A stretch of 64,000 bases of DNA. It comes from Alteromonadaceae bacterium Bs31. Lineage in GTDB: Bacteria > Pseudomonadota > Gammaproteobacteria > Pseudomonadales > Cellvibrionaceae. The stretch's first letter is position 1. Every line of letters starts with the position of its first letter. The stretch is from assembly GCA_900177435.1 (NCBI GenBank), contig FXAI01000002.1, positions 208,386 through 272,385 on the forward strand, written 5' to 3'. Below, piece by piece: positions 31,072 to 54,061 of the stretch. A program made the translations under genes and the position numbers. The notes beneath the pieces were generated by a model. It ran no database searches. It had not been told where the DNA came from and saw nothing but the letters and a program-made list of their open reading frames with translations.

Positions 31072-33549
<2,478 letters not shown>

Positions 33550-34677
33550 CTAGTGTGTGGTGAGAGGCGAAACCTGAATTTCACCATGTTTCACGTGAAA
33601 CATTTGAAGCTGTTCTTCATCCTTTAGATCCCAAGGCTCGATAATGGCATCTTTAGCTATAGCTGTTACAAATACCTGAGACTCCATCGCCTTGATTGCC
33701 TTACCTACTATCTGCATGTTCTCGCTATCCAGTTCAGCGGGTAAATCGTCCAACAAGAATAAAGCTTTCCTATTGGTCATCTGCTGAAACAAGCCAGCCT
33801 CAGCGAGAAACAAAGACAAGATCACTGACTTTTGTTGCCCTCGCGAAAGCATCTCTGTGGCTGGTGCCTTGTTCCTGGTGATTTTTAGATCCGAACGGTG
33901 GGAACCAATATTGGTGTAACCCAGTTTGATATCCCTCTCCAGGTGTTCTTGTAGCTGTTTTTCAAAAGGTACATCGTCCTTCCAACCAGAGTGATAGGCC
34001 AAGACAACCGGACTTTCATCGGCCTTATTAAAAGGAAAGCTCGACACTATGTTCTGGAAAAAGGGATGGAACGCTTCAAATATCTCAGCACGCATATCCT
34101 CTAAAGCGTGTCCCAAGCGTGCTACCTCTCTGTCCCAGGGCTGCAGCTCGCCGGTCGAAATTTTACCACGTCGCAGTAAACTATTCCGGTGTTTAACGCA
34201 CCGTACATAGTCTTTCCACACCGATTTAAAGTCATGTTTCACGTGAAACACTAACCAGTCAAAAAATTGCCTGCGATACTTAGAGGATCCTTCGAGTAGC
34301 TGAAAGGAATTGGTGTTCATTGTCAGCAAAGGCAGCTGATGGGCCAACTCAGCAGACGTTTTTACGGATTGCCCATCAAGTCGAATATTTACATCGCCTT
34401 GTAGCTGTCTTGTAACACCAAGCTTATGGCTTACAGCACTACCTTCGTCTTCGAGTACAGCGAACAGTGTGAACTCCCGCTCTCCCTCATTCACCAAGGG
34501 TCTGTATTTATGAGTACGAAAGGAGCGGCCGTGAGCTAGCACGCTAATGGCTTCAAGTAATGAGGTCTTTCCGGAGCCGTTGGCGCCATGAATTAAATTG
34601 ATACCTCCACCGGGCAATAAGCTTACCGAGCGGAGGTTTCTAAAAGAAGTAATATTGATTTGTTGTAATTTTGGCAT
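33550..34677 (-). CDS. recF: DNA replication and repair protein RecF
   Basis: SMC-like ATPase of 375 residues that helps load RecA at gapped DNA and stalled forks. Walker A is GANGSGKTSLLEA at residues 33-45, the signature motif is LSRGQQKSVI, and Walker B is LFLLDDLPAELD. Two exact parS palindromes sit inside the gene (33587-33602 and 34235-34250), and each forces the peptide FHVKH into the protein, near residue 145 and near residue 364. The gene lies 49 bp downstream of dnaN and 18 bp before gyrB. Confidence 0.98.
   Translation of the reverse strand: MPKLQQINITSFRNLRSVSLLPGGGINLIHGANGSGKTSLLEAISVLAHGRSFRTHKYRPLVNEGEREFTLFAVLEDEGSAVSHKLGVTRQLQGDVNIRLDGQSVKTSAELAHQLPLLTMNTNSFQLLEGSSKYRRQFFDWLVFHVKHDFKSVWKDYVRCVKHRNSLLRRGKISTGELQPWDREVARLGHALEDMRAEIFEAFHPFFQNIVSSFPFNKADESPVVLAYHSGWKDDVPFEKQLQEHLERDIKLGYTNIGSHRSDLKITRNKAPATEMLSRGQQKSVILSLFLAEAGLFQQMTNRKALFLLDDLPAELDSENMQIVGKAIKAMESQVFVTAIAKDAIIEPWDLKDEEQLQMFHVKHGEIQVSPLTTH
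33587..33602. promoter_or_regulatory. parS: parS site 1 (ParB-binding centromere)
   Basis: Exact 16-bp palindrome TGTTTCACGTGAAACA, the common bacterial parS consensus bound by ParB/Spo0J. It lies within the last codons of recF, about 4 kb from the dnaA-rpmH intergenic region, where chromosomal centromere sites normally cluster. Confidence 0.9.
34235..34250. promoter_or_regulatory. parS: parS site 2 (ParB-binding centromere)
   Basis: Second exact copy of the 16-bp parS palindrome, inside recF and 648 bp from site 1. Two perfect copies of a 16-bp palindrome this close are not expected by chance. Confidence 0.9.
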
Positions 34678-34726
34678 GCGCCTTGTTAAAGCCGTGGTAA
34701 AAAGAGGCTATACACAGTATCTAGTG

Positions 34727-35830
34727 TTACAGGCGCATCGGCATCACAACATAGGCGGAATCTGAGTTTTCTGGCTCTTCCAGAAGTGCGGAGCTGTTTG
34801 AGTCTGATAAGGTGATCTTAATGTTTTCGGAGTCCAACACGTTTGTTACGTCTTGCAGGTAGCTGACGTTAAAACCGACCTCCAAAGAGTCACCTGCGTA
34901 ATTTACGGCTACCTGATCCTGCGCTTCTTCCTGTTCAGGGTTATTAGCAATAATGGTCAACATGCCTTCTTCTAACTCCAGGCGAACACCACGATACTTC
35001 TCATTGGATAGGATGGAGGTACGTGCAAAAGCCTGTTTTAATTCTGCTCGATCACCAATAACAAACTTATCACCACCTTTGGGTAATACCCGCTCGTAGT
35101 CTGGGAACTTGCCGTCTACGAGCTTAGAGGTAAAGGTATACTCGGAAGTGGTTGCTCTGATATGACTGGAGCCCAATGACACCTCAACATTCTCATCACT
35201 GTCGTTCAACAGCCGGGAAAGCTCAATAACGCCTTTGCGAGGCAATATCGCCTGCCTCAAGTCTGCTATCTCGACATTTACCGGGCGAGTACACATAGCC
35301 AGGCGGTGGCCATCTGTAGCAACTACACGTAACTCCTGAGAGCGTACCTCCCACAGCATGCCGTTTAAATAGTAACGAACATCCTGCTGAGCCATAGCAA
35401 AGCTGGTTCTGTCTATTAGGCGCTTCACCTCTTTTTGTTCGCTACTGAAGCTTAAATCATTGCTACCCTGCTCTACCGCTGGGAACTCATTGCCCGGCAG
35501 GGTGGAAAGAGTAAAACGTGTACGGCCGCTTTTTACGGTAACTTTTTGATCTTTAAGGGAAAATTCTATATTTGAATCGTCTGGAAGTGCGCGACAGATA
35601 TCGAGAAACTTCTTCGCGGGGACGGTGATCTCGCCATCTCCAGGGGCGTTTTCCAACTGCAGCCGACCAACAATCTCTACCTCGAGGTCTGTACCGGTAA
35701 TAGATAACTGAGAACCTTCAATAACCAACAGCACGTTGGCCAAAACAGGAAGCGTCTGACGACGCTCTACAACACCCGCTACCAACTGCAGGGGCTTAAT
35801 TAATGCTTCACGTGAAACGGCAAATTTCAT
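34727..35830 (-). CDS. dnaN: DNA polymerase III sliding clamp (beta subunit)
   Basis: Ring-forming clamp protein of 367 residues that tethers polymerase III to DNA. Start MKFAVSREALIKPLQLVAGVVERRQTLP read as the usual DnaN opening; conserved NGMLWEV and ATDGHRLAM segments; the end DSAYVVMPMRL is the clamp C-terminus. It lies 50 bp after dnaA and 49 bp before recF. A near-parS site overlaps codons 4-9. Confidence 0.99.
   Translation of the reverse strand: MKFAVSREALIKPLQLVAGVVERRQTLPVLANVLLVIEGSQLSITGTDLEVEIVGRLQLENAPGDGEITVPAKKFLDICRALPDDSNIEFSLKDQKVTVKSGRTRFTLSTLPGNEFPAVEQGSNDLSFSSEQKEVKRLIDRTSFAMAQQDVRYYLNGMLWEVRSQELRVVATDGHRLAMCTRPVNVEIADLRQAILPRKGVIELSRLLNDSDENVEVSLGSSHIRATTSEYTFTSKLVDGKFPDYERVLPKGGDKFVIGDRAELKQAFARTSILSNEKYRGVRLELEEGMLTIIANNPEQEEAQDQVAVNYAGDSLEVGFNVSYLQDVTNVLDSENIKITLSDSNSSALLEEPENSDSAYVVMPMRL
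35804..35819. promoter_or_regulatory. parS: parS-like site 3, two mismatches
   Basis: TGCTTCACGTGAAACG differs from the exact parS sequence at two outer positions and keeps the central TTCACGTGAAAC. It overlaps the first codons of dnaN. It may be a weaker ParB site. Confidence 0.65.
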
Positions 35831-35880: not shown

Positions 35881-37380
35881 TCAGGTAGTTAACGTTCGAA
35901 GCAGGTTTTTAACATCTTCCCGGATATCGGCGTCGGACTCCTGTAGCGCTTTTATTTTTCGACACGCATGCAACACAGTAGTGTGATCCCTGCCCCCAAA
36001 AGCCTCACCAATTTCAGGCAAGCTGTGGTGAGTAAGCTCTTTTGCCAGGGACATTGCTACCTGCCGAGGCCGAGCCACTGAACGACTTCTTCGCTTCGAA
36101 TGCAGGTCCGAAACCTTGATTTTATAATACTCTGCAACAACGCGCTGTATATTATCGATACTAACTAGCCTATCTTGCAGCGCTAAGAGGTCTTTTAGCG
36201 CCTCTCTCACCAATTCAACGCTTATTTCCTTACCAGTGAAGTGGGCGTTGGCAATTACGCGTTTAAGCGCTCCTTCCAGTTCGCGCACATTTGAACGAAT
36301 GCGCTGGGCAATAAAGAAGGCTGCATCATTGGGTAGATGCATAGAAACAGACTCAGCTTTGCGCTTTAAAATGGCAACCCGTGTTTCCAGCTCTGGTGGC
36401 TCGATGGCTACCGTCAAACCCCAACCAAAACGGCTTTTTAACCTTTCTTCCAAACCGTTGATTTCTTTGGGGTACTTATCACAGGTGAGAATTATCTGCT
36501 GACCACCCTCCAGCAGGGCGTTAAAGGTGTGAAAGAACTCTTCCTGGGAACGCTCTTTACCTGCGAAGAACTGGATATCATCAATAAGCAGTGCATCAAC
36601 AGAGCGGTAATAGCGCTTAAACTCATTAATTGCATTAAGTTGCAGAGCTTTTACCATGTCAGCCACAAAACGCTCGGAATGCAGATACACCACACGTGCA
36701 CCCGGCCGTCGCTGCTCAAGTGCATTACCCACCGCATGCATCAAGTGAGTTTTACCCAGGCCAACACCACCGTATATAAAGAGTGGGTTATATGAGCCAC
36801 CTGGATTCTCCGCTACCTGAGAGGCTGCCGCCAAACCTAACTGATTCGATTTACCCACCACGAAGTTATCGAAGATAAAGTTTTTGTTGAGGTTACTTTT
36901 ATGCTGTATACCTCCTTCGATATCACGCTTTTTGACGCGATCTACTGGAACCTGCTGAAAAGTCTCTCTAGATGGGATATCTAAAACTTGCTGTGCCGGA
37001 GCAAACTGAGTGTCGTTATATACCTGTTCTGATTGTAGCGATTGGCCGAACAAGGGCCTCGGCTCTACAGCTTGGGCTACTACAGGCTCAATGGGTTCTG
37101 CTTTCTTTTGATCAGCATAAACCTTAAAGCCTGTAGCCATTTGCGGTGCCACCGCGATATCGATTGAGCAATAGGCACCACCATTAGTCATCAGCTCTTC
37201 TATTCGTGCCTTAAACTTATCATTTACCCAATCCAACACGAAGCGGTTTGGCGCCAGCAGGCGAAGGTTGTCCTCGGACTGGTGCTCCACACGCAGGGGT
37301 CGAATCCAGGTATTAAATTGTTGGGCGGGTAATTCTGTACGCAATGACGAAACACATTGCTCCCAGCTTATCTCTGACAA
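35881..37380 (-). CDS. dnaA: Chromosomal replication initiator protein DnaA
   Basis: AAA+ initiator of 499 residues that binds DnaA boxes at oriC and opens the origin. Domain I is at residues 1-85 ([24 protein letters not shown]), a variable linker 86-160, the ATPase with Walker [11 protein letters not shown] and Walker [10 protein letters not shown] at about 165-375, and the DNA-binding domain IV with [12 protein letters not shown] at the end. First gene of the minus-strand replication cluster; the DnaA boxes in the region to its right suggest autoregulation. Confidence 0.99.
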
Positions 37381-37709
37381 GTCGCTACTCCATCTTTAAA
37401 ATTTGCTATCCCAGCGGGCGAAAATCCATTGAGAAACTAAGTAAGCCTGCTCCAAGCTCATATTTTAGGGACGAACTGGCCCCGACTCTAAATAGAACCA
37501 TAATGTGAAACATGAGATAAGGAGACCTGAATTACGCCTTTCCGTTTAACTGCACGTCAGCTGAACGAGAGAAAGACTACATCGCCTAAAAGCGCTTAAT
37601 GTCGTTAAACTAACATGTACCAAATAACTCAAACTAATGTAGTTTTTCGCGCCATTATTCTTGAATACTTTTTAGCAACGGCCGATGATTCTACTCTCTT
37701 CCCTAAGGC

Positions 37710-37718
37710 TTATCCACA
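37710..37718 (+). promoter_or_regulatory. Perfect DnaA box
   Basis: TTATCCACA, the strong E. coli-type DnaA box, 330 bp upstream of the dnaA start. Confidence 0.85.
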
Positions 37719-37844
37719 GGCTTGGGCATTTTTTTTTAAACTTCCGCCGAAAAACCTCAATAAATTCCGTGCCTTACAACAATATTAAAATTATTCAAGT
37801 TTTTTCTTTATACTTTTTTCCACTATGTCCGACAAATAAAAAAC

Positions 37845-37853
37845 TGTGGATAA
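37845..37853 (-). promoter_or_regulatory. Perfect DnaA box
   Basis: TGTGGATAA, the reverse complement of the strong DnaA box, facing the box at 37710 across AT-rich DNA. Confidence 0.85.
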
Positions 37854-37975
37854 ACCTGTTTATAAACTATTAATAACATGTCTATTTCAACACATTTACT
37901 GGCCTGAGCTCATGCTTTCTCTTGTCTTCTACGGGTCACATTTTTGTAATAAACAAATCTTGTAATCAAGATCAA

Positions 37976-38004
37976 TTGATTTTGCAGGACCTTTTCTATA
38001 GAAT
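37976..38004 (+). promoter_or_regulatory. Predicted sigma-70 promoter of rpmH
   Basis: -35 TTGATT (37976-37981) and -10 TAGAAT (37999-38004) are separated by 17 bp, about 94 bp before the rpmH start. It would drive rpmH-rnpA and probably yidD-yidC. Confidence 0.5.
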
Positions 38005-38091
38005 CGCGCGTCCTTTGAACCGGTAAGCACTTTCACTTACCAAATCGCCAGCAATAACGGGGAGTTCTTTTCTCCTCAGCAAAACAGGTGA

Positions 38092-38232
<141 letters not shown>

Positions 38233-38274
38233 TTTGTGGTTAAGGCCACAAGCGGTTTAGTGTAGATTGCCGGG

Positions 38275-38682
38275 GTGCAAAATTCTGAGCGGACAAAAGG
38301 CTTTAGCTTCCGAAAGTCCGACAGGCTTCTGACATCCCGAGACTTCTCAGCGGTTTTCGATAAGGCTGACTACAAAGCCTCCCACCAGCATTTCCTCATC
38401 CTCGCCCAAGATAACTCTCTGGATCACTCTAGGGTGGGTTTAGTTATTGCCAAAAAGAACATTCGTCTGGCAGTTGATCGTAATCGACTGAAACGTTTGA
38501 TTCGCGAGTCATTCCGCTTGAAACAGCTTCATCTGCCCGCAATAGATGCTATAGTGCTGGCCCGCCGCGGCGGTGATCAAATCACCAGTCAAGAGATCTT
38601 AAAAACACTGGACAACTTATGGACGCGTGTTGCCAAAAGGGCCATGCAAGCGAGCAAAAACCAAAAAGCCTTAGAAAAATAG
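38275..38682 (+). CDS. rnpA: Ribonuclease P protein component
   Basis: Basic protein of 135 residues that helps the RNase P RNA bind and cut tRNA precursors. The RNR motif region is [14 protein letters not shown] at about residues 63-76, and [13 protein letters not shown] is the usual start region. It begins at GTG 38275, with GCCGGG just before it. The N-terminus may be a few residues longer than usual. Its 3-prime end overlaps the yidD frame, a common arrangement. Confidence 0.96.
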
Positions 38683-43212: not shown

Positions 43213-45111
43213 ATGATCTACCCAAGAACATTTGATGTGATTGTCATCGGTGGCGGCCATGCTGGTACAGAGGCCTGTCTGGCCGCTGCGCGCATGGGTT
43301 GTTCTACCCTGCTGTTGACCCACAATATCGAAACACTTGGGCAGATGAGCTGTAACCCGGCCATTGGGGGCATTGGTAAGAGCCACCTGGTTAAGGAAAT
43401 TGACGCTCTTGGCGGTGCCATGGCTAAAGCTACCGATAAGGGCGGTATTCAGTTTCGCGTGCTTAATAACCGTAAAGGGCCAGCCGTTCGCGCTACTCGG
43501 GCTCAGGCAGACCGGGTATTGTATAAATCCGCCGTTCGGGAGATTTTGGAAAATCAGCAGAATTTGCTCATTTTCCAACAGGCCGTTGATGACCTGATTG
43601 TTGAAGGGGATACAGTCAGGGGTGTGGTCACACAGATGGGGCTGCAGTTTTACGCACCCTCAGTCGTGCTTACTGCAGGCACCTTCCTGGGCGGCCGAAT
43701 ACATATTGGTATGGAAAACTATCGCGGCGGCCGTGCTGGCGATCCGCCTTCGATAGCGCTTGCCGACCGTCTGCGCGAGCTGCCACTACAGGTAGACAGG
43801 CTCAAGACCGGCACACCGCCTCGTATTGACGCCCGCACGGTGGATTTCACCGACCTACAGGAGCAATGGGGTGACACACCTACCCCGGTGATGTCCCTGC
43901 AGGGTTCTGTTGATGACCATCCGCAGCAGACCTGCTGCTGGATTACACACACCAATGAACGCACCCACGAGATTATTCGCGGTGGCTTTGATCGCTCTCC
44001 CATGTTTACTGGTGTTATCGAAGGTGTTGGGCCGCGTTACTGCCCGTCAATTGAAGACAAGGTCAACCGCTTTGCGGATAAGAACAGCCACCAGATTTTT
44101 ATTGAGCCAGAAGGCCTGCTTACCCACGAACTCTACCCCAACGGTATTTCCACCAGCTTGCCATTTGATATTCAACTGGCACTGGTGCAATCCATAAAGG
44201 GCTTTGATAGTGCTCATATCTGCAGGCCGGGGTATGCCATCGAGTACGATTTCTTTAATCCGCAAGATTTAAAGTACAGTTTTGAAACTCGGCATATCAA
44301 CGGCCTGTACTTTGCGGGTCAAATTAACGGCACTACGGGCTATGAGGAAGCGGGAGCACAAGGTTTGCTGGCCGGGACCAATGCCGCTTTGGCAGTGCAA
44401 GGTAAAGATGCCTGGTGCCCGGAGCGTGACCAGGCATATATTGGCGTTTTGGCTGATGATTTGATAAGTATGGGCACCAAAGAACCCTATCGCATGTTTA
44501 CCAGCCGTGCGGAATACCGTTTGTTGTTGCGTGAAGACAATGCCGATTTGCGTTTGACGGAAAAAGGTCGTGAACTGGGCCTGATCGACGATACCCATTG
44601 GCAACTATTTTGTGAAAAACGCGAAGCCATCGAGCGGGAAACCCAGCGTTTAAAGAGTACCTGGGTTCAGGCCGGTAGCAGCGAAGCTGAGCAGTTAAAA
44701 CCTAAACTCAGCTCTCCGCTGCAACGGGAATATTCCTTAATGGATTTGCTTAAGCGGCCAGAGCTAAGCTATTGCGATATTGCTGATTTTAAACGTGACT
44801 GTAATGAACGAAAACCACAGCAGCAAGTGGCCGAGCAAATTGAAATAGCCGCTAAATACTCCGGTTATATCGACCGCCAGCAAGAAGACATCCAGCGCTT
44901 ACGTCAGAATGAGAATACTGCTATTCCCCTTGATTTTGATTACAGCACGGTAGAAGGTCTTTCCAACGAACTAAAACAAAAACTTATTGCAGCGCAACCT
45001 GAAACCATTGCCCGGGCGTCGCGCATTCCAGGAATAACCCCGGCGGCAGTCTCTCTGCTGTTAATCTACCTGAAAAAGCGGGGTTTGTTGAAAAAGTCCA
45101 CAGTGGCTTAA
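43213..45111 (+). CDS. mnmG: tRNA uridine-5-carboxymethylaminomethyl modification enzyme MnmG
   Basis: FAD-dependent enzyme of 632 residues, partner of MnmE. The FAD dinucleotide motif is [14 protein letters not shown] at residues 8-21, followed by [22 protein letters not shown], the KTGTPPRID segment, and [20 protein letters not shown]. The C-terminal helical domain ends with [23 protein letters not shown]. The frame can start at GTG 43204, but ATG 43213 fits the family start and has GAG about 9 bp upstream. The usual rsmG does not follow; a minus-strand gene is next. Confidence 0.98.
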
Positions 45112-45163
45112 AAAATAATGGCTTAAATAAAGTAGCTTGAATAAAGAAGCTCAATAGAGACGG

Positions 45164-45202
45164 CCGATGCTTGCGCTGGCAATAAACCATTGCAAGCATC
45201 GG
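45164..45202. terminator. Hairpin between convergent mnmG and the LVIVD gene
   Basis: CCGATGCTTGC at 45164-45174 pairs perfectly with GCAAGCATCGG at 45192-45202 around a 17-base loop. It lies between two convergent stops and could end transcription both ways, although no T-tract adjoins it. Confidence 0.5.
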
Positions 45203-45209
45203 GGAAGCG

Positions 45210-46502
45210 TTAATACTCCAGCACACTCACCACAGTAATACTTTCTTCATCACTGTAATCTACCTGTATAACGCTGTTTACACCCTGCAGAATAGCGTGC
45301 CCGTCTACGGCAATAATGTCTCTTAAGGTGTAATTACCCAGCCCTTGCATAAATATTGGATTGGCGGGGTCGGCTACATTCAGCCGCTTTAAGCCTGAGT
45401 AGCCATCGGCGACTAACAGAAGATTGCCATCTATAGCTAGACCGTAGGGTTCAGACATTTCCACGCTGGTGATCAGTTGTGGAGCGTATATATCTGACAC
45501 ATCAAGAATATCCAGTTGGTTTTGGGCGCCGCCGCAACCTCTTCCGCGTAAAGTAGAGTAAGCAACTTCACCCTGCACGACGATTGGATCACAGCTCCAC
45601 TGGTGAGAAAAAGTGCCAGCTACCTGAGGGCTATTCCTGGTAGTGATATCCAGAATTTCCACACCAACGCTGGTGCCGATGTACAGGGCGTTGTTGTGGT
45701 AGTAAAGGGTTTCCATTGCCCAGTTGTTCACAGCGGTAGTATTTACCAGTTCTGGAGCTGAGGGGTCGGCAAGTGACACGGTTTTAACCTCATCGTAAGA
45801 AATAACATAGAGGTAATCGTCAACAATAATCATGTTAGCCAGAGAACCCTGTTTAACCGCCGGTGTTGCCGTATTATCTTGGGCAGGCGTGGCAGTGCTA
45901 CCACCGCCACTAGAGCCGCAACCTCCTGAGGTATCGTTGCCGGAATAATTTCCCCCTCGACATTGCTGAGAGACAATTTCGAAATCCTTTACTACACCGA
46001 GTTTCGGGTCGCGAGCGCCAAAAAAATATTTTTCAGGGTCATCGAGCGTGGTGAGGGGGGTGGGGAACAGGTTTTTCAGGCGGCCAGTTTCTGCGGCGTT
46101 GTTCGGGTCGCTGATATCTATAGCAATGAGGTCTACGTAACTTCTGGTGTAAAGTATATCTCCACTCATGGCTACCTGGTCAGCGGCGTAAACACTAAGA
46201 AAACTGATTTTTTCGGGGGCCTGTGGGTCTGAATTGTTTACTAGATGGATTCCCTTGTTCGGTTCAGAGAGTATCAGTAAGTCGTCTTTCAGCAGCATGT
46301 TACCTATTTTTTTAAAGGGCATAACACTCTCTGCTTTTACTGGTGTGCGAAACTCCTCCCAGCTGAGGTATTCAATATCGTACACAGTCTCACAGTATGG
46401 CGAGCTGGTCTGCGCCGGCCCGTAAAAGAGTAAAGCTGATAAAAACAATAAAGAAGCTGCGGTGCGTATGGTATTTGAGCGGTGTTTTGCAGGTTTAGGC
46501 AT
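45210..46502 (-). CDS. Secreted LVIVD-repeat beta-propeller protein
   Basis: Protein of 430 residues with an N-terminal signal (about residues 14-32, SLLFLSALLFYGPAQTS). Repeats of the type LYVISYDEVKTVSLADPSAPELV, LYIGTSVGVEILDITTRNSPQV and LLVADGYSGLKRLNVADPANP match LVIVD repeats, which form beta-propellers on the cell surface or in the periplasm. A Gly/Ser/Cys-rich insert (about residues 185-220, including SGGCGSSGGG) interrupts the blades and resembles a flexible linker. The ligand is unknown. It converges on mnmG and diverges from the acetoacetyl-CoA synthetase. Confidence 0.8.
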   Translation of the reverse strand: MPKPAKHRSNTIRTAASLLFLSALLFYGPAQTSSPYCETVYDIEYLSWEEFRTPVKAESVMPFKKIGNMLLKDDLLILSEPNKGIHLVNNSDPQAPEKISFLSVYAADQVAMSGDILYTRSYVDLIAIDISDPNNAAETGRLKNLFPTPLTTLDDPEKYFFGARDPKLGVVKDFEIVSQQCRGGNYSGNDTSGGCGSSGGGSTATPAQDNTATPAVKQGSLANMIIVDDYLYVISYDEVKTVSLADPSAPELVNTTAVNNWAMETLYYHNNALYIGTSVGVEILDITTRNSPQVAGTFSHQWSCDPIVVQGEVAYSTLRGRGCGGAQNQLDILDVSDIYAPQLITSVEMSEPYGLAIDGNLLLVADGYSGLKRLNVADPANPIFMQGLGNYTLRDIIAVDGHAILQGVNSVIQVDYSDEESITVVSVLEY

Positions 46503-46709
46503 GGCTTAGTCCCTTGAGCTAAAACGTCTAAAGCCTGAGTATATAAGAGCACACGGGAAAATAGTGCTTCAAAATGTAATTTGGCTTTTGCGGGTATAAT
46601 CACCTGGCGGCGATTATTGCTGTTATGCAGCATAAAAAGCGTTAAAATTGAACGGTCATCCTGTGTTTTATTCGGCAACGCGAAAGTTCTTACTTGAAGG
46701 AGCTTTATC

Positions 46710-48638
46710 ATGCTTTGGCAAGCCAGCGAGGAGCGTAAGCAGCGCTCCCACATGCAACGATTCCTGGAGTATATCCACGCCCGGCACCCTCTTTGCGAGC
46801 TGAGTTACGCTGCCTTGCACCAGCTTTCTGTACAGCAGCCGGCCTTTTTTTGGACGGAGCTAATTCGATATTTTGAAGTGGATTTTGAGGGAGATGTAGC
46901 CCCAGCAGCCACGGACTTTGGTTTTGAACGCTATGCCTGGTTTCCTAATGTCAAACTCAACTTCGCCAAAAATTTATTAAAAACAGGTGAACCATCGCAA
47001 ACGGCCTTAATCTCCGTTTTAGAGAACGGTGACAGGCAGGTGCTTAGCTTTGCCGAACTTCGCCAGGCTGTCGCCTGTTTTCAACAACAAATAGCAGCCA
47101 CTATTAGCGAAAACGATGTGCTCGCCTGCTATATGCCCAATATTAGCGAAACTGTTATTGCCATGCTGGCCACTACCGCGAGCGGAGGCATATTTACCTC
47201 TACAAGTGCCGATTTTGGTGTGGAAGGTGTGGTGGACCGTTTTGGCCAATCGCAAGCTAAGGTGTTGGTGTGTTGTGCGGGTTATGAGTACAACGGCAAG
47301 TATTTCGACTGCCTTGCAAAGGTTAGGGAGATTCTTGAGCGAATCGATTCTATTGAAAAGGTGGTAGTGGTAGATCGATACCATAAGAAACCGGATATCA
47401 GCCAGCTCGCCAATGCGGAATTCTGGCAGGCACCCTCTGAGGGTGAGCTGGCCATTAGCTACTGCATGCGCTCCTTTTCAGCCCCTTTGTATATTATGTA
47501 TTCCTCTGGCACAACCGGTAAGCCAAAGTGTATTGTGCATGCCGCTGGTGGTGTACTGTTGCAACACATTAAAGAGCTTGGTTTACACAGCGACCACAAC
47601 AGTAATAAAAATATTTTCTTTTTTACCACCTGTGGCTGGATGATGTGGAACTGGCTGGTAAGCTCGCTGTTCTTTGGTGGTACTTGCACACTCTATGAAG
47701 GTTCCCCTGCCTATCCCAGTTTTGAGAAATTTTTATCCCTTATAGAAACGGAAAAAATTAATATTTTTGGTACTTCGCCAAAATACTTAAAAGCGCTGGA
47801 AGACAGTAAAACGGAAATAAGGTCGATAGATTTTTCTGCTTTGGAAACTATTTTAAGCACCGGGGCGCCCTTGTTGCCAGAGCAATATGATTTCGTCTAC
47901 AACAGCATAAAAAGTGATGTTCTGCTTGCCAGTATTTCTGGTGGCACAGACATAATTGGCTGCTTTTTTTTGGGCAATCCACTATTACCCGTTTATCGTG
48001 GAGAATTACAGTGTGTGGGTTTAGGTATGGACGTGGCTTGTATTGATGAAAGTGGCCAGGCTCTTATCGGTCAACAAGGGGAGCTGGTATGCCGAAGCAG
48101 TTTTCCATCGCGGCCTCTGTATTTTCTTAACGATCCAGACAATACGAAAATTAAGGAAGCGTATTTTTCCACTTATCCTGGCCTTTGGTATCACGGCGAC
48201 TATATAAAAATAAACTCAAGAGGCGGTGCAATATTCTATGGTCGAAGCGACGCCACCCTTAACCCTGGTGGAGTGCGTATTGGCACCAGTGAAATTTACC
48301 GGCAAACAGAAACCCTGGACTACATTGAAGATAGCGTTTGTGTTGGCAGGCAAAGAAAGGGAGAAGTGGATGTTATCTTATTCGTAAAAATGAAGCCAAA
48401 AGAGCTGTTAAGTGAACAGCGTATTCATGAAATAAAACAGGGAATAAAAGTTAAAACCACTTCACGGCATGTGCCTAGAGACGTTATTGCAGTTGCTGAT
48501 ATACCTTATACCCGCTCCGGTAAAAAAATAGAACTGGCAGTAAGTAAGATAATTAACGGTAAAAAAATAACTAACAAAGAAGCAATTGCCAACCCGGAAT
48601 GCCTGGCAGAATATAAAAAAATAGTAGAGCACATCTGA
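46710..48638 (+). CDS. Acetoacetyl-CoA synthetase
   Basis: Adenylate-forming ligase of 642 residues that activates acetoacetate to acetoacetyl-CoA using ATP. The N-terminal ACAS-type cap has FGFERYAWFPNVKLNFAKNLL as in acetoacetate ligases. The AMP-binding P-loop is YSSGTTGKPKCIVH, WMMWNWLVSSLFFGG follows, and the C-terminal lysine motif is YTRSGKKIE. Length is normal. A GAAGGAG ribosome site lies 7 bp before the ATG. It stands alone and would feed ketone bodies or polyhydroxybutyrate products into central metabolism. Confidence 0.92.
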   Translation: MLWQASEERKQRSHMQRFLEYIHARHPLCELSYAALHQLSVQQPAFFWTELIRYFEVDFEGDVAPAATDFGFERYAWFPNVKLNFAKNLLKTGEPSQTALISVLENGDRQVLSFAELRQAVACFQQQIAATISENDVLACYMPNISETVIAMLATTASGGIFTSTSADFGVEGVVDRFGQSQAKVLVCCAGYEYNGKYFDCLAKVREILERIDSIEKVVVVDRYHKKPDISQLANAEFWQAPSEGELAISYCMRSFSAPLYIMYSSGTTGKPKCIVHAAGGVLLQHIKELGLHSDHNSNKNIFFFTTCGWMMWNWLVSSLFFGGTCTLYEGSPAYPSFEKFLSLIETEKINIFGTSPKYLKALEDSKTEIRSIDFSALETILSTGAPLLPEQYDFVYNSIKSDVLLASISGGTDIIGCFFLGNPLLPVYRGELQCVGLGMDVACIDESGQALIGQQGELVCRSSFPSRPLYFLNDPDNTKIKEAYFSTYPGLWYHGDYIKINSRGGAIFYGRSDATLNPGGVRIGTSEIYRQTETLDYIEDSVCVGRQRKGEVDVILFVKMKPKELLSEQRIHEIKQGIKVKTTSRHVPRDVIAVADIPYTRSGKKIELAVSKIINGKKITNKEAIANPECLAEYKKIVEHI

Positions 48639-48678
48639 ATAACATTTGATTAACTTTAGCGGGAATATTTCAGGGATT

Positions 48679-49737
48679 TTAGGGCATTAAATAAATCTCG
48701 CCTCTAACCGGCTCACTAACTTTAGCCAACCTTTTTGCATTTCTTGCAAAACCATATTCACTGCACAGCCTGCCAAATTCCTCTAATCCGTTAACTGTTG
48801 TTTTATCATCAGCCAGTTTGTCTAACATATCTTCCTGTTTTTGGTTAATATTCGGGCTGAGTTGGTAGATTGCGCCCACCAGTTCTGAACTGGTCATATC
48901 ACTGTGTATGACTACTAGTTTATCGCGGATTTGTTCCCATTTTGCGGCAGACATTTTGGCGTTGGCAGATAGCCTGCTAATTATCTGCTTGCTGCGCAAT
49001 TCGCTGCGCATAAGTTTACCGTGTTGTAACAGCTCGGTAATCAATTCATCGCTTGCTTCAATACCCAGCTGTTGCATAACACCGTCTATTTCAGCAGAGC
49101 GTAATTGAGGTTCTTGCCACAACCATTCGTTTATCTGTTCATAGGTTTCACAAAAATATTTTTTTACATCCGCTATGGGTAGTACCTTGGTGCCCGTGGG
49201 GATATTCTTTTTAAGGGTATTGAGCATGGCGGCAGGTTCGACCAGATCTGTTTTTAAAAGTCTATGCTGGCTTTGTCTTGGCATTAAATCGGCGAAGCTG
49301 GAATTACTGATACATAGTGAACCGCCGTCACTTAACCTTGCCAGGCACTCGTAACAGAATGTAGGAGGAATTGGATTGTCCTCGTCGCAATCGGCTTGCC
49401 CTTCGTAGAATGCAAATACCAAAGCTTTCTTAAAGCACCAAAGGGAAATATGCACTGTGGAAGCGCCGGCGTAGGTGACAAAATATCCGTGGTGAACCAG
49501 GCCAAGGCGGCGTAAAGTATTCTCCTGTTCTACCAGTTTGTCACGTTCCTGCCAGTCCACCAAATCGGAATTTTCCAGTTCCAGCGACATTTCTGGTAGC
49601 ACGGTAATGAGCTTATTGAGATCTGAATTGGCTATACCTTTTAAACGACGAAAAAACCTGAGAATTTTCCAGCCGTAAAATGCCCCAACGAATAACAGGA
49701 TAAGAAATATGCCACCGAGAATTTGAAGGAACAGCAT
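48679..49737 (-). CDS. Membrane-anchored hypothetical protein
   Basis: Protein of 352 residues that I do not recognise. One N-terminal membrane segment (FLQILGGIFLILLFVGAFYGW) is followed by basic residues, so the remainder is most likely cytoplasmic. The middle part is beta-rich with conserved-looking FVTYAGASTVHISLWCF and CYECLARLSDGGSLCIS, and the C-terminal third is helical and charged. No nucleotide-binding or catalytic motif is evident. It is separated by about 120 bp from the next minus-strand gene and lies alone after the synthetase. Confidence 0.7.
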   Translation of the reverse strand: MLFLQILGGIFLILLFVGAFYGWKILRFFRRLKGIANSDLNKLITVLPEMSLELENSDLVDWQERDKLVEQENTLRRLGLVHHGYFVTYAGASTVHISLWCFKKALVFAFYEGQADCDEDNPIPPTFCYECLARLSDGGSLCISNSSFADLMPRQSQHRLLKTDLVEPAAMLNTLKKNIPTGTKVLPIADVKKYFCETYEQINEWLWQEPQLRSAEIDGVMQQLGIEASDELITELLQHGKLMRSELRSKQIISRLSANAKMSAAKWEQIRDKLVVIHSDMTSSELVGAIYQLSPNINQKQEDMLDKLADDKTTVNGLEEFGRLCSEYGFARNAKRLAKVSEPVRGEIYLMP

Positions 49738-49856
49738 GGGGCTAGGGCCTCTTTGAGTTTTTTAGCGGGTACGCATTTGCTATATGTTAATTAGCGGTAT
49801 ATACCCTGTCGCTCTCTTTTTGCTGACTAATTTCAGCATATATCCCATTCTGGGCT

Positions 49857-50282
49857 TTAATTGTCACTTATATCGTCTGCGTCCACCTGGCCGGTTATTT
49901 TACGGCGAATATGAGACCAGGATATTCCGAAAGCCAGTACCAGTGCGAGCAGCACCAGCACAACCCAGCTAAAGGTACCTACGTTGCTGAGGCTGAGTAA
50001 ACCCATGTCTACAAATAACCACACCAGGCAGCCAAAAAATACCGTTGCCAGCAGCATACCGGCCACGCCCAGTGAGCGGAACGAGGCGCGCAGATAGATG
50101 GCCCAACCAATAATGAGTGCTGAGCCCGCTACTGCCAGCAGGGGTGTTATTGAAGGGAAAGTATTCACTAGCCAGTGTGCAAAGGAATAGCCACTAGGGT
50201 TATAGGAGCACAGCACCAGTACCAGTGCGAATAGAAAGCGAAGCCCGAATTGTGCCAGGTTGAAATCAGTATTCTTAGCCAT
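49857..50282 (-). CDS. Small four-span membrane protein (DUF6524-like)
   Basis: Protein of 141 residues with four predicted membrane spans (near residues 14-30, 45-65, 75-93, 103-122) and an acidic tail. FNLAQFGLRFLFALVLVLCSYNPSGYSFAHW is typical of a small uncharacterised family of gammaproteobacterial membrane proteins that I believe is DUF6524. It lies 9 bp after the acyltransferase gene in the glyQS operon. Confidence 0.7.
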   Translation of the reverse strand: MAKNTDFNLAQFGLRFLFALVLVLCSYNPSGYSFAHWLVNTFPSITPLLAVAGSALIIGWAIYLRASFRSLGVAGMLLATVFFGCLVWLFVDMGLLSLSNVGTFSWVVLVLLALVLAFGISWSHIRRKITGQVDADDISDN

Positions 50283-50291
50283 AGTGAATCC

Positions 50292-51002
50292 TCATAGGGT
50301 TTTCATGGTGCTCTCTATCCAGGTTTCCACTTCGCCAATCAGTTCTCGGCTGGTTTTACCTTCGGGAGATATGGGCGGTCCAACCACTATGGTTATGCAG
50401 CCCGGAACTTTTTCCATTTGCTTGGTTGGCCAATAAACACCAGAGTTTACGGCTATAGGTATAATGTTTTTACCGGATTCAACCGCAATATCAGCACCGC
50501 TTCGAGCGTACTTGCCTTTCTCCCCCGGCGCAACGCGTGTGCCCTCTGGGAAGAGTAACAAGTTGTAGCCATTTTGTAAGCGTTGAACGCCATTGGTTTT
50601 TACTTTTCGCAGTGCTTCACGAGGGTTGTCTCGATCAATGGGGATGGGGTTGAGCGCCGCCAAACCCCAACCGAAAAAAGGTATGCGTAACAGTTCCTTT
50701 TTTAATACTGTGCAGGCGGGCCAGAACAGATTCTGGAGAAACAGGGTTTCCCAGGTGCTTTGGTGTTTGGATAAAATTAACACCGTTTCCCCTTTGGCAG
50801 GCAGGTTTTCCCTGCCGATGACTTGATAGCGCAGGCCACAAATCCAGCGGGCCAAAAAAACCGCCAGTTGAGTCCAGCCCATAATTACACGGTGCCGCAG
50901 CCTTAGCGGCAGAGGCCATAAAAACAACGACAGCGTGCCGTAAAAAACACCTGTTGAGTTGTAGATAACAGCAAACAGGAACGACCGGGTTTTTATAAAC
51001 AA
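50292..51002 (-). CDS. PlsC-like 1-acyl-sn-glycerol-3-phosphate acyltransferase
   Basis: Membrane-associated acyltransferase of 236 residues that acylates lysophosphatidate in phospholipid synthesis. An N-terminal hydrophobic region is followed by motif I KHQSTWETLF (HxxxxE form of the usual HxxxxD), motif II around NPIPIDRDNPREAL, motif III FPEGTRVAPG and motif IV with IPIAVNSG. It follows glyS by 24 bp on the same strand; in Pseudomonas-type operons gmhB lies between them but is missing here. Confidence 0.9.
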   Translation of the reverse strand: MFIKTRSFLFAVIYNSTGVFYGTLSLFLWPLPLRLRHRVIMGWTQLAVFLARWICGLRYQVIGRENLPAKGETVLILSKHQSTWETLFLQNLFWPACTVLKKELLRIPFFGWGLAALNPIPIDRDNPREALRKVKTNGVQRLQNGYNLLLFPEGTRVAPGEKGKYARSGADIAVESGKNIIPIAVNSGVYWPTKQMEKVPGCITIVVGPPISPEGKTSRELIGEVETWIESTMKTL

Positions 51003-51026
51003 TTATTAGTCCTTATCAAACAATAC

Positions 51027-53093
51027 TTATTTCACAGCGAGTAAGGAAATATCAGCAACTTCCAGGAATAGGCTGCGCAACTGCTGCAATAATGCCAGAC
51101 GATTTTCGCGCACTTTTTCGTCGTCGCACATTACCATTACATCATCAAAGAAAGTGTCCACAGCCTGGCGTAAGCCAGCCAGGATTTTTAAAGCTTCAGT
51201 GTAATTGGCTTTGTGGAAATGGGGCTGTACCTTTGCCGTCATCTCTTCTATTTGAGCTGCGAGGGTTTTCTCAGCAGCTTCAATCAGCAGGCTTTCATCG
51301 ATAGAGCTGGCGGGCTGGTGATCCAGCTTCGCCAGAATATTGGAGACCCGCTTGTTGGCTGCAGCCAATGCTTGTGCTTCCGCCATTTTGGAGAATTCCG
51401 CAACGGCGTAAACGCGCTGGTTAATATCCAGTGGCGTACTTACCCCTTTGGCGCTTACTGACATGAATACTTCAGCGGCAATCCCGGCTTCTTCGTACCA
51501 GCTGCGGAAACGTTCGATCATGTAGGCGAGCACATCTTCAACCACGTTTTTATTGCTTAGGGCCTGGAAACTGCTTGCGGAGCTGGCGATAAGTTCGCGC
51601 AAATCAAGGGAGTATTCTTTTTCCACCAGAATGCGCAAAGCGCCCAGCGAGGAGCGACGCAAAGCAAAGGGGTCTTTCGAGCCAGTGGGTTTTTGCCCTA
51701 TGCCGAATATTCCGGTGATAGTATCTAGCCGGTCCGCCAGCGCGATTATTGCACCAGTGGTACTCGCTGCCAGTTGGTCACCGGCGAACTTGGGCATGTA
51801 CTGCTCGTTAATGGCCTGCGCTACCTCAGCAGGTTCACCGTCGTTTAGCGCATAGTGATAGCCGGCGATGCCCTGCATGTCTGGGAACTCGTAAACCATG
51901 CTGCTGACAAGGTCGGATTTACACAGTTGTGCGGCGCGGCTCACTAAGGCCTTATCTGCCCCTAGTTTGTCTGCTATGAGTGTGGCTAGCTGCTCAATGC
52001 GCTCTGTTTTCTCAAACACGGTACCGAGCTTGGCCTGGAAAACTATATTTTTAAGGCGCTCGCGCTGGGCCTGCAGGTTGGTCTTTTTATCCGTATCAAA
52101 AAAGAAAGCGGCATCTGCCAAACGGGGCCGAATAACTTTTTCGTTGCCTTCAATAACCTGCTTCGGGTCTTTACTCACAAGGTTTGACAGAGTAATGAAG
52201 TAAGGCAATAACTCGCCTTTGTTATCAACCAAGTGGAAATATTTCTGGTGTTCCTTCATGGAGGAGATAAGCGCTTCTGCTGGAACAGAGAGGAAGCTTT
52301 TCTCAAACTTGCCTGCCAGCGCCACGGGAAACTCTACCAGCGCGGTGACTTCGTTCAGCAAGTCTTCATCAATAACGGCAGTGCCACCCAGCTTTTCTGC
52401 CTCGGCTTTAACCTGCTCGGCGATGTCTGATTTGCGCTGGTTGAAATCGGCGATCACTTTCCCGGTGCTAGCGAGCACCTCGGCGTAATCCCCGGCGGTT
52501 TTTAGTTCAATTTGCTGATTGTGATGGAAGCGGTGTCCGCGAGTACTGCGACCCGCATTTAAATCGAGAATTTCTCCCTCCAGCACTTTATCGTCCAGCA
52601 TCATCACCAACCAGTGAACGGGACGAACGAATTCGGTGCGGCTGGCACCCCAGCGCATGCGTTTGTTAATGGGCAGCTTTGCCAGCGATTCATTAACAAT
52701 ACCCACTAATAAATCAGCAGCGGCTTCGCCACCGGCGCTTTTATTAAAAACCAGCTTGTCGATTTTACCGTCGTTTTCGCTGCTTAAGGCGTCGAGGCTT
52801 ATGCCGTTCTTCTTGGCGAAGGCCTCGGCGGCTTTGGTGGGCTGGCCGTCTTTATAGGCGACTTGGGTCGGTGGGCCCCATACTTTCACATCTTCTTTGG
52901 GAGTGCTTTCTGCAAGCTCTTCCACCAGCATCGCGAGGCGACGCGGGGTAGCGTAGGGTGTGATGGAAGCAAAGCTGAGTTTGTGTTGCTCCAGGCCGCT
53001 TTTGACGCCGTTAACAAAGGCTTCCGACAGGGTTTTTAATGCAGTAGGCGGCAGTTCTTCTGTGCCCAGTTCTACTAAAAATTGCTGGCTCAT
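51027..53093 (-). CDS. glyS: Glycyl-tRNA synthetase beta subunit
   Basis: Protein of 688 residues, the tRNA-binding subunit of the heterotetrameric bacterial glycyl-tRNA synthetase. The start [22 protein letters not shown] is the signature; [36 protein letters not shown] and the [27 protein letters not shown] segment follow. A C-terminal anticodon-binding-like domain ends the protein. Its start overlaps the glyQ stop by 4 bp, giving coupled translation in the right ratio. Confidence 0.98.
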
Positions 53094-54061
53094 TTGGCGG
53101 CTCCCTCTTCGTCGTTGGCTTTTTGGATAACTTCGTCTCGCAGATTATCCGGTGCCAGGGGGAAGCCCAGTTTCATTCGCGCGTTAAAGTAGGCCTTGGC
53201 CACATCCCGTGCCAGAGTGCGTACACGCAGAATAAAGCGCTGGCGCTCGGTTACCGAGATGGCCTGACGGGCATCCAGCAGGTTAAAGGCATGGGAGGCT
53301 TTCATCACCATTTCATAGGCGGGCAGTGGCAGCCCTTTTTCGATTAAGCGCTTGGATTCTGCTTCGTAAACATCAAAGCTGTGGAACAAAAATTCAACAT
53401 TGGCTTCGCTGAAATTAAAGTGGGACATTTCAACTTCGTTCTGGTGAAACACATCGCCGTAAGTGACTGGCTTGCCGTCTGGGCTAATAGTCCACACCAG
53501 GTCGTAGATGGAGTCCTTGCCCTGTAAATACATGGCAATGCGCTCCAGTCCATAGGTAATCTCGCCGGTTACCGGGTAACACTCTATGCCGCCCACCTGC
53601 TGAAAGTAAGTAAACTGGGTAACTTCCATGCCGTTTAGCCACACTTCCCAGCCCAGGCCCCAGGCTCCAAGTGTGGGGCTTTCCCAGTTATCTTCAACAA
53701 AACGAATATCGTGAATACTGGTGTCTATGCCGAGCTGCTGTAAAGAGCCCAAGTAAAGCTCTTGAATGTTACTGGGGGACGGTTTTAGTACTACCTGATA
53801 CTGGTAGTAGTGTTGCAGTCGGTTGGGGTTCTCACCGTAGCGGCCATCGGTGGGACGGCGGCAAGGTTGTACATAGGCACTGTTCCAGGTTTCCGGGCCA
53901 ATGGCGCGTAAAAAGGTGGCCGGGTGGAAGGTGCCTGCGCCCACTTCCATATCCAGCGGCTGTAAAACCACACAGCCCTGATTGGCCCAATACTGTTGCA
54001 GGGCAAGGATCAGCCCCTGAAATGTTGAAACGTCTGCCTTAGACTCGGCGGATTTAGACAC
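53090..54061 (-). CDS. glyQ: Glycyl-tRNA synthetase alpha subunit
   Basis: Catalytic class II synthetase subunit of 323 residues that adenylates glycine and charges tRNA-Gly. Motifs include [80 protein letters not shown]. First gene of a minus-strand operon with glyS, a PlsC-like gene and a small membrane protein. Confidence 0.98.

Follow-up and report, generated by a model that had tools for sequence, protein, structure and literature searches.

Two predicted parS centromere sites within the recF reading frame of Alteromonadaceae bacterium Bs31 and their conservation in Gammaproteobacteria

Two identical palindromes lying within recF of Alteromonadaceae bacterium Bs31 are, very probably, the main chromosomal parS sites of this bacterium, located some 3.5-4 kb from oriC, where ParB would be loaded for chromosome segregation and where the same bases would fix codons and residues of RecF. 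Comparison with relatives, made at the level of sequence, supports the assignment of the sites, their confinement to recF within the host family (Cellvibrionaceae), selection acting on the DNA, joint change of the two sites, and release of the codons where sites appear to have moved or been lost. The window analysed here is the whole 64,000-nucleotide stretch spanning positions 208386-272385 of contig C45, in a genome of 5.02 Mb and 46 contigs.

Three matches with at most three mismatches were found in the window, a number reached in none of 100 window shuffles (shuffle mean 0.31). Two of them are exact copies of TGTTTCACGTGAAACA, with the form of the 16-bp parS palindrome TGTTYCACGTGRAACA, and neither is assigned to a strand: site 1 (34235..34250) covers recF codons 143-148 and is read V-FHVKH, with FHVKH at residues 144-148, while site 2 (33587..33602), near the C-terminus, covers codons 359-364 and is read M-FHVKH, with FHVKH at residues 360-364. 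Both lie in the same frame, xTG TTT CAC GTG AAA CAT. The third match (35804..35819, likewise without strand) has two mismatches and falls on dnaN codons 4-9 (VSREA). A sequence-only reading of this DNA had reported these three copies, all of which we recovered, and had proposed a genome search for the 16-mer; when the 5,017,353 bases of the 46 contigs were searched by pattern, the recF pair proved to be the sole exact copies, with 0.0015 exact copies per genome expected from the base composition of the window. Copies with two mismatches occurred at three places, the one in dnaN and two unrelated places on other contigs, and since a backwards control pattern also gave three places in this genome at two mismatches, a lone match of that quality is not beyond chance genome-wide.

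The genes around the sites follow the order dnaA, dnaN, recF, gyrB on the minus strand. Specifically, dnaA (35881..37380, start codon uncertain; NCBIfam TIGR00362) is followed by dnaN, encoding the sliding clamp (34727..35830; NCBIfam TIGR00663), by recF, the host gene of both sites (33550..34677; NCBIfam TIGR00611, 340.8 bits), and by gyrB, downstream of recF (31072..33531; NCBIfam NF011501). The interval separating dnaA from the gene at 38275 (37381..38274, no strand assigned) is the probable oriC: it contains two exact copies of TTATCCACA, which we take to be the DnaA box, at 37710-37718 and 37845-37853, and no other exact copy was found in the window. The recF sites therefore lie approximately 3.5-4.1 kb from this pair adjoining dnaA, in line with the earlier claim that they mark a zone close to the origin.

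That claim also depended on the genome having a parB gene, and one ParB was indeed identified, at C45:498296 (parB is also given as C45:498299; ParB_N E 3.1e-41), directly beside parA and behind a gene resembling rsmG by eye. Its helix-turn-helix holds Q162, G170, K171, S172, R173, N178, G201 and R204 (Caulobacter numbering), the residues that contact parS according to PMC7383237, in which R173 and G201 set the preference for parS versus the Noc site. At these two positions the protein carries the parS-type residues rather than those of Noc (Q173, R201); the Noc model matches it with 221 bits, under its cut-off of 315, and its best solved relatives carry the name ParB.

The position of parA-parB, about 256 kb from the recF sites, differs from that in seven congeners, where parB lies 12-33 kb from recF, and reflects either a rearrangement close to the origin or an artefact of assembly. 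Look-alikes of glyS and glyQ, recognised by eye, occupy positions 45111-54061 of the window, beyond mnmG, where parAB would be expected; in P. aeruginosa, gene numbers place glyS and glyQ on the gyrB side, and the position seen here fits an inversion around the origin.

For the comparison with relatives, aligned codons were read in a first batch of 213 genomes, comprising 53 of the host family, 87 others of the order and 73 others of the class. Because this batch consisted mostly of best-ranked RecF matches (87 of the 108 RecF-matching genomes of the order outside the family), a second batch of 59 low-ranked genomes (19 order, 40 class) was added as a test of bias and kept separate; codon expectation, tree and promoter background come from the first batch only. 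The 73 genomes of the class were taken from about 151 over the RecF cut-off, and four of them (L162-L165) were picked since ParB was missing in each or in a congener. L138 (the same genome as L064), L002-L006, L015 and E. coli L222 were omitted from the 213, and L141, L349 and L354, which end at a contig edge, were scored as lacking a site. A further 80 named loci, found partly by a pattern containing FHV, represent no unbiased sample. BLAST placed none of the loci collected before the second batch near E. coli or Aeromonas.

At least one in-frame recF site with at most one mismatch to the palindrome was present in 256 of the 272 Gammaproteobacteria of both batches. In the first batch both sites were found in 182 of 213 genomes (52 host family, 75 other order, 55 other class), one in 20 (1, 7 and 12, respectively) and none in 11 (0, 5 and 6). 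Conservation was lower in the second batch, where 37 of 59 genomes had both sites, 17 had one and five had none (11, 7 and 1 of the 19 from the order; 26, 10 and 4 of the 40 from the class). An exact copy was present in 56 of 61 host-family genomes, and in the 48 whose recF was compared, this one included and 13 of the 61 falling outside, all 70 of 70 exact parS copies lay at the two recF positions, the genome-wide exact count equalling the recF count in each genome. The five host-family genomes lacking an exact copy were three of genus g13, with one-mismatch sites at both recF positions, plus G024 and G053, which are drafts of 68% and 87% completeness.

The two sites form a recF-embedded pair at RecF codons homologous to those used in Pseudomonas. 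Among the named loci, partly selected for FHV, the pair was seen in Azotobacter vinelandii, several Halomonas, Microbulbifer and some Pseudomonas; many other Pseudomonas had one mismatch at site 1, Aeromonas dhakensis had site 2 alone, and the four Marinomonas, Amphritea, Marinobacterium and Neptuniibacter had neither. A one-mismatch parS-like site near the start of recF, encoding a further FHVKL peptide, was also observed in L103, L105 and L106, members of family f13 of the order.

The dnaN copy, which the sequence-only reading had counted as a third centromere site, behaved differently. Its 16-mer, CGTTTCACGTGAAGCA, is identical in 4 of the 8 genomes of the genus, whereas in other congeners synonymous TCG or CGC codons break the core, and a site with at most two mismatches occupies this position in only 7 of the 201 loci with a readable dnaN start. 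The copy does retain an intact ten-base core, TTCACGTGAA, with a GTTTCAC half-site of the kind bound by P. aeruginosa ParB (PMC10419367), and the VSRET peptide of genus g32 (L017, L037) creates a version with a single mismatch to parS; however, its codons show no marked freezing, and conservation beyond the needs of the peptide was not found at this position. We consider it unlikely that this copy represents a genuine third parS. It may be at most a weak or incipient site, and would mostly be a by-product of the VSREA codons that is occasionally recruitable.

For the recF sites themselves, the question is whether RecF needs FHV[EK]H as a protein, with the palindrome being an accident of codon choice. 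Codon use spoke clearly against this, since the freezing far exceeds usage: in the first batch the valine codon was GTG in 382 of 389 cases (112 expected from codon use elsewhere in these recF genes), the histidine codon CAC in 391 of 404 (172 expected), the glutamate codon GAA in 298 of 302 (154 expected) and the lysine codon AAA in 95 of 95 (53 expected), and the second batch gave GTG 94/99, CAC 92/101, GAA 75/76 and AAA 28/29. When 235 recF codon columns of the first batch were scored against codon usage, the seven most frozen, V362, V146, V143, H361, H145, E147 and E363, were all parS codons; in a scan of the host family only, R170, part of a promoter-like element described below, ranked first, with three parS valines next.

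The peptide gave a more divided picture. RecF proteins without parS retain the F of both sites and the first H of site 1, as in E. coli (FHNEP and FTVEK) or Marinomonas L267, which reads FHFD and keeps the F and H of site 1, and the Pseudomonas loci L310, L316 and L318 still encode FHVEP although their site 1 has decayed to TGTTCCACGTCGAGCC. These three loci also demonstrate, however, that encoding the peptide does not require parS, and after FH the genomes without sites read FD, AD, SD or QE. In the solved RecF 5z69, a Firmicute protein, the aligned segment lacks such a peptide, and parS also occurs in other frames: L162 has a one-mismatch copy 23 bases away that is read GSTWN, and L117 has an additional exact parS in recF that is read VPRET. 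The residue after E or K varies where the DNA permits (H, Q, P or R), and because P is common there at site 1, E. coli included, the H that ends site 1 seems to be there to satisfy the final parS base.

What the DNA contributes is thus the codon choice together with the V, the E or K and the H or Q after it; F at the two sites and the first H of site 1 belong to RecF itself as well. The earlier claim that the sites impose FHVKH on RecF stands for the former and has to be given up for the latter, which occur in RecFs lacking parS. Most relatives examined keep the sites at the same codons, with E commoner than K (302 versus 95 in the first batch). Because of the codon freezing, the joint core changes and the behaviour where sites were lost or moved, the idea that selection acts on the DNA and shapes RecF is strongly supported, and a protein-level origin of the palindromes appears highly improbable.

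In the first batch the lysine codon AAA was paired with TTT 88 times and with TTC 7 times, and by parsimony 11/12 and 21/25 of the E-to-K gains arose on a TTT background. Palindrome repair within one site as the driver of these changes was dropped, because E or K at one site is predicted about equally well by the F codon of its partner site; in the 36 genomes with differing F codons, K was at the TTT site in 4 and at the TTC site in 2. GC strata alone were insufficient to explain the association, which a lineage-wide cause would account for equally well.

Joint change of the two sites was analysed in 227 genomes with intact arms at both. The CACGTG core was present at both sites in 216, changed at both in 6 and changed at one only in 5 (L113, L123, L129, L158 and L197), with 0.32 genomes expected to be changed at both under independence (Fisher p 1.3e-8, without correction for relatedness). 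In 4 of the 6 the new core was identical at both sites (CACATG in L186, CACGTA in L219, CATGTG in L343 and CATATG in L372); L357 had TACGTA and CACGTA, and L163, from the ParB-less genome G347, had two different decayed cores. Parallel change in RecF stretches 216 residues apart is what a shared reader of the DNA would be expected to cause. ParB contact motifs were compared in 14 hand-chosen relatives, including five of the six genomes changed at both sites, the sixth being G347. The GKSR contact motif was changed in 3 of the 5 (GLSR, SRSR and GKPR), GRSR occurred in a genome with the consensus core too, and R173 and G201 never varied; co-change of ParB and its sites in L186, L219, L343, L357 and L372 is suggestive only.

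Nine first-batch genomes (G128, G090, G159, G137, G101, G228, G324, G243 and G305) had neither in-frame site at two or fewer mismatches, and in all nine a whole-genome search revealed a copy carrying one mismatch or none, either at another place or in another frame. ParB was present in eight, each of which had a parS or one-mismatch copy elsewhere; it was not found in G305, a 90% draft. This last genome (L162) was dropped as a loser of both sites, given its out-of-frame copy. In G159, G101 and G243 the other copies all had one mismatch, and since the backwards control gave 6 matches over 21 genomes, single weak copies may be due to chance. Another parS was located nearby in 6 of the 28 genomes missing at least one in-frame site versus 6 of the 185 others (p 0.0016, without correction for relatedness, one of the 28 being a cut contig).

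With regard to genomes lacking ParB, G347, a single contig, contained no copy with one mismatch or fewer anywhere, and its recF sites were worn, with 3 and 2 mismatches; its congener G202 has ParB and both sites. Three other genomes in which parS was present and ParB was not found, G213, G305 and G306, are drafts of 81%, 90% and 95% completeness. The evidence from ParB-less genomes comes from G347 and, by way of published work, from E. coli. ParB models do match the control E. coli genome, so its status is taken from PMC4368675, which reports Enterobacteriaceae to be devoid of a chromosomal par operon. Site 2 of E. coli K-12 recF reads TGTTTACCGTGGAAAA, three mismatches from parS (13/16 bases), encodes FTVEK and is possibly a relic descended from parS. 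As the sites are assigned to ParB from their sequence, they might in principle bind some other regulator with a CACGTG core, but this is highly improbable, since they match the sequence that ParB is known to bind in B. subtilis and P. aeruginosa, the ParB of this genome bears parS-type residues, and G347 and G202 differ in their sites as they do in ParB.

A second patch of frozen codons in recF, which is not part of parS, corresponds to the element TGRTARAATA and uses the codons AGA and ATA. In the window it reads TGGTAAAATT (34159..34168, minus strand), covers recF codons about 169-173 and points to gyrB. In 51 of 54 cases it lies 82 nt downstream from where parS site 1 starts, and within a 48-nt stretch TGnTAnnAT was present in 49/53 genomes of the host family, 44/87 of the other order genomes and 1/73 of the other class genomes, with 0.002-0.010 expected from the rest of recF; the low-ranked genomes gave 1/19 (order) and 1/40 (class). 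The element is kept in Marinomonas and others without recF parS, L322 having TGGTATAAT. It was not listed by a promoter scan that requires a -35 box; to us it looks like an extended -10 promoter toward gyrB. Separately, at residues 346-347 near the end of dnaN the serine codons AGC and AGT showed unusual fixation across the class, being used in 113/175 and 117/188 cases versus about 36 expected for each, possibly reflecting another DNA- or RNA-level signal.

By analogy with known ParABS biology, ParB dimers would load at the recF parS pair, close into CTP-dependent sliding clamps and spread across dnaN-recF-gyrB, and after replication ParA would pull the ParB-bound sites apart. Since the sites sit in the reading frame, selection on the 16 bp would freeze the codons xTG TTY CAC GTG RAA Cx and fix RecF residues at two places, namely V, E or K, then H or Q. 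For Gammaproteobacteria as a whole we lean towards a history in which the centromere has lain in the recF frame since early in the class, fixing codons, dictating RecF residues and changing jointly with the taste of ParB, and in which the codons were freed after move or loss, with E. coli possibly preserving a relic. One stretch of DNA would thus serve as centromere and protein code, a natural example with several losses, moves and joint changes. This would allow the place of ParB loading in Gammaproteobacteria to be guessed from the genome alone, cautions against ascribing the conserved RecF residues 143-148 and 359-364 to protein function only, and opens to experiment how a centromere can reshape a repair protein and why recF was used rather than an intergenic gap.

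In the open-licence literature searched, we found no account of parS in recF being conserved across the class or constraining codons; a 2007 parS survey by Livny and colleagues may list gene positions. As far as that literature goes, what appears to be new is that the position is fixed across the class, that the family uses recF exclusively, that an imprint on the codons and residues of RecF can be measured, and that the two sites change jointly. Native parS sites of Bacillus subtilis and Caulobacter, which resemble those described here in the type of 16-bp palindrome and in the ParB contact residues, do not to our knowledge lie in recF. In Caulobacter, an insertion screen identified a hot spot for an extra parS over recF, gyrB and a neighbour (PMC5815017).

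The closest known system is that of P. aeruginosa, which like the window has two parS in recF. There, parS1 and parS2 lie inside recF (PMC5521831), the closest parS in recF is about 4 kb from oriC (PMC3909081), four parS less than 15 kb from oriC are bound by ParB (PMC5098823), and intragenic parS were altered by mutations preserving the protein sequence (PMC4368675); placement in recF as such was therefore already known. The differences concern the remainder of the system: P. aeruginosa has further high-affinity sites, parS3 and parS4, plus six weaker ones, whereas the genome analysed here has no exact copy outside recF, and parAB lies about 7 kb from oriC in P. aeruginosa, in contrast to the distant position in Bs31. 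Named Pseudomonas other than P. aeruginosa carry their sites at the same RecF codons as the window, mostly in the TTC..GAA form, whereas the window has TTT..AAA.
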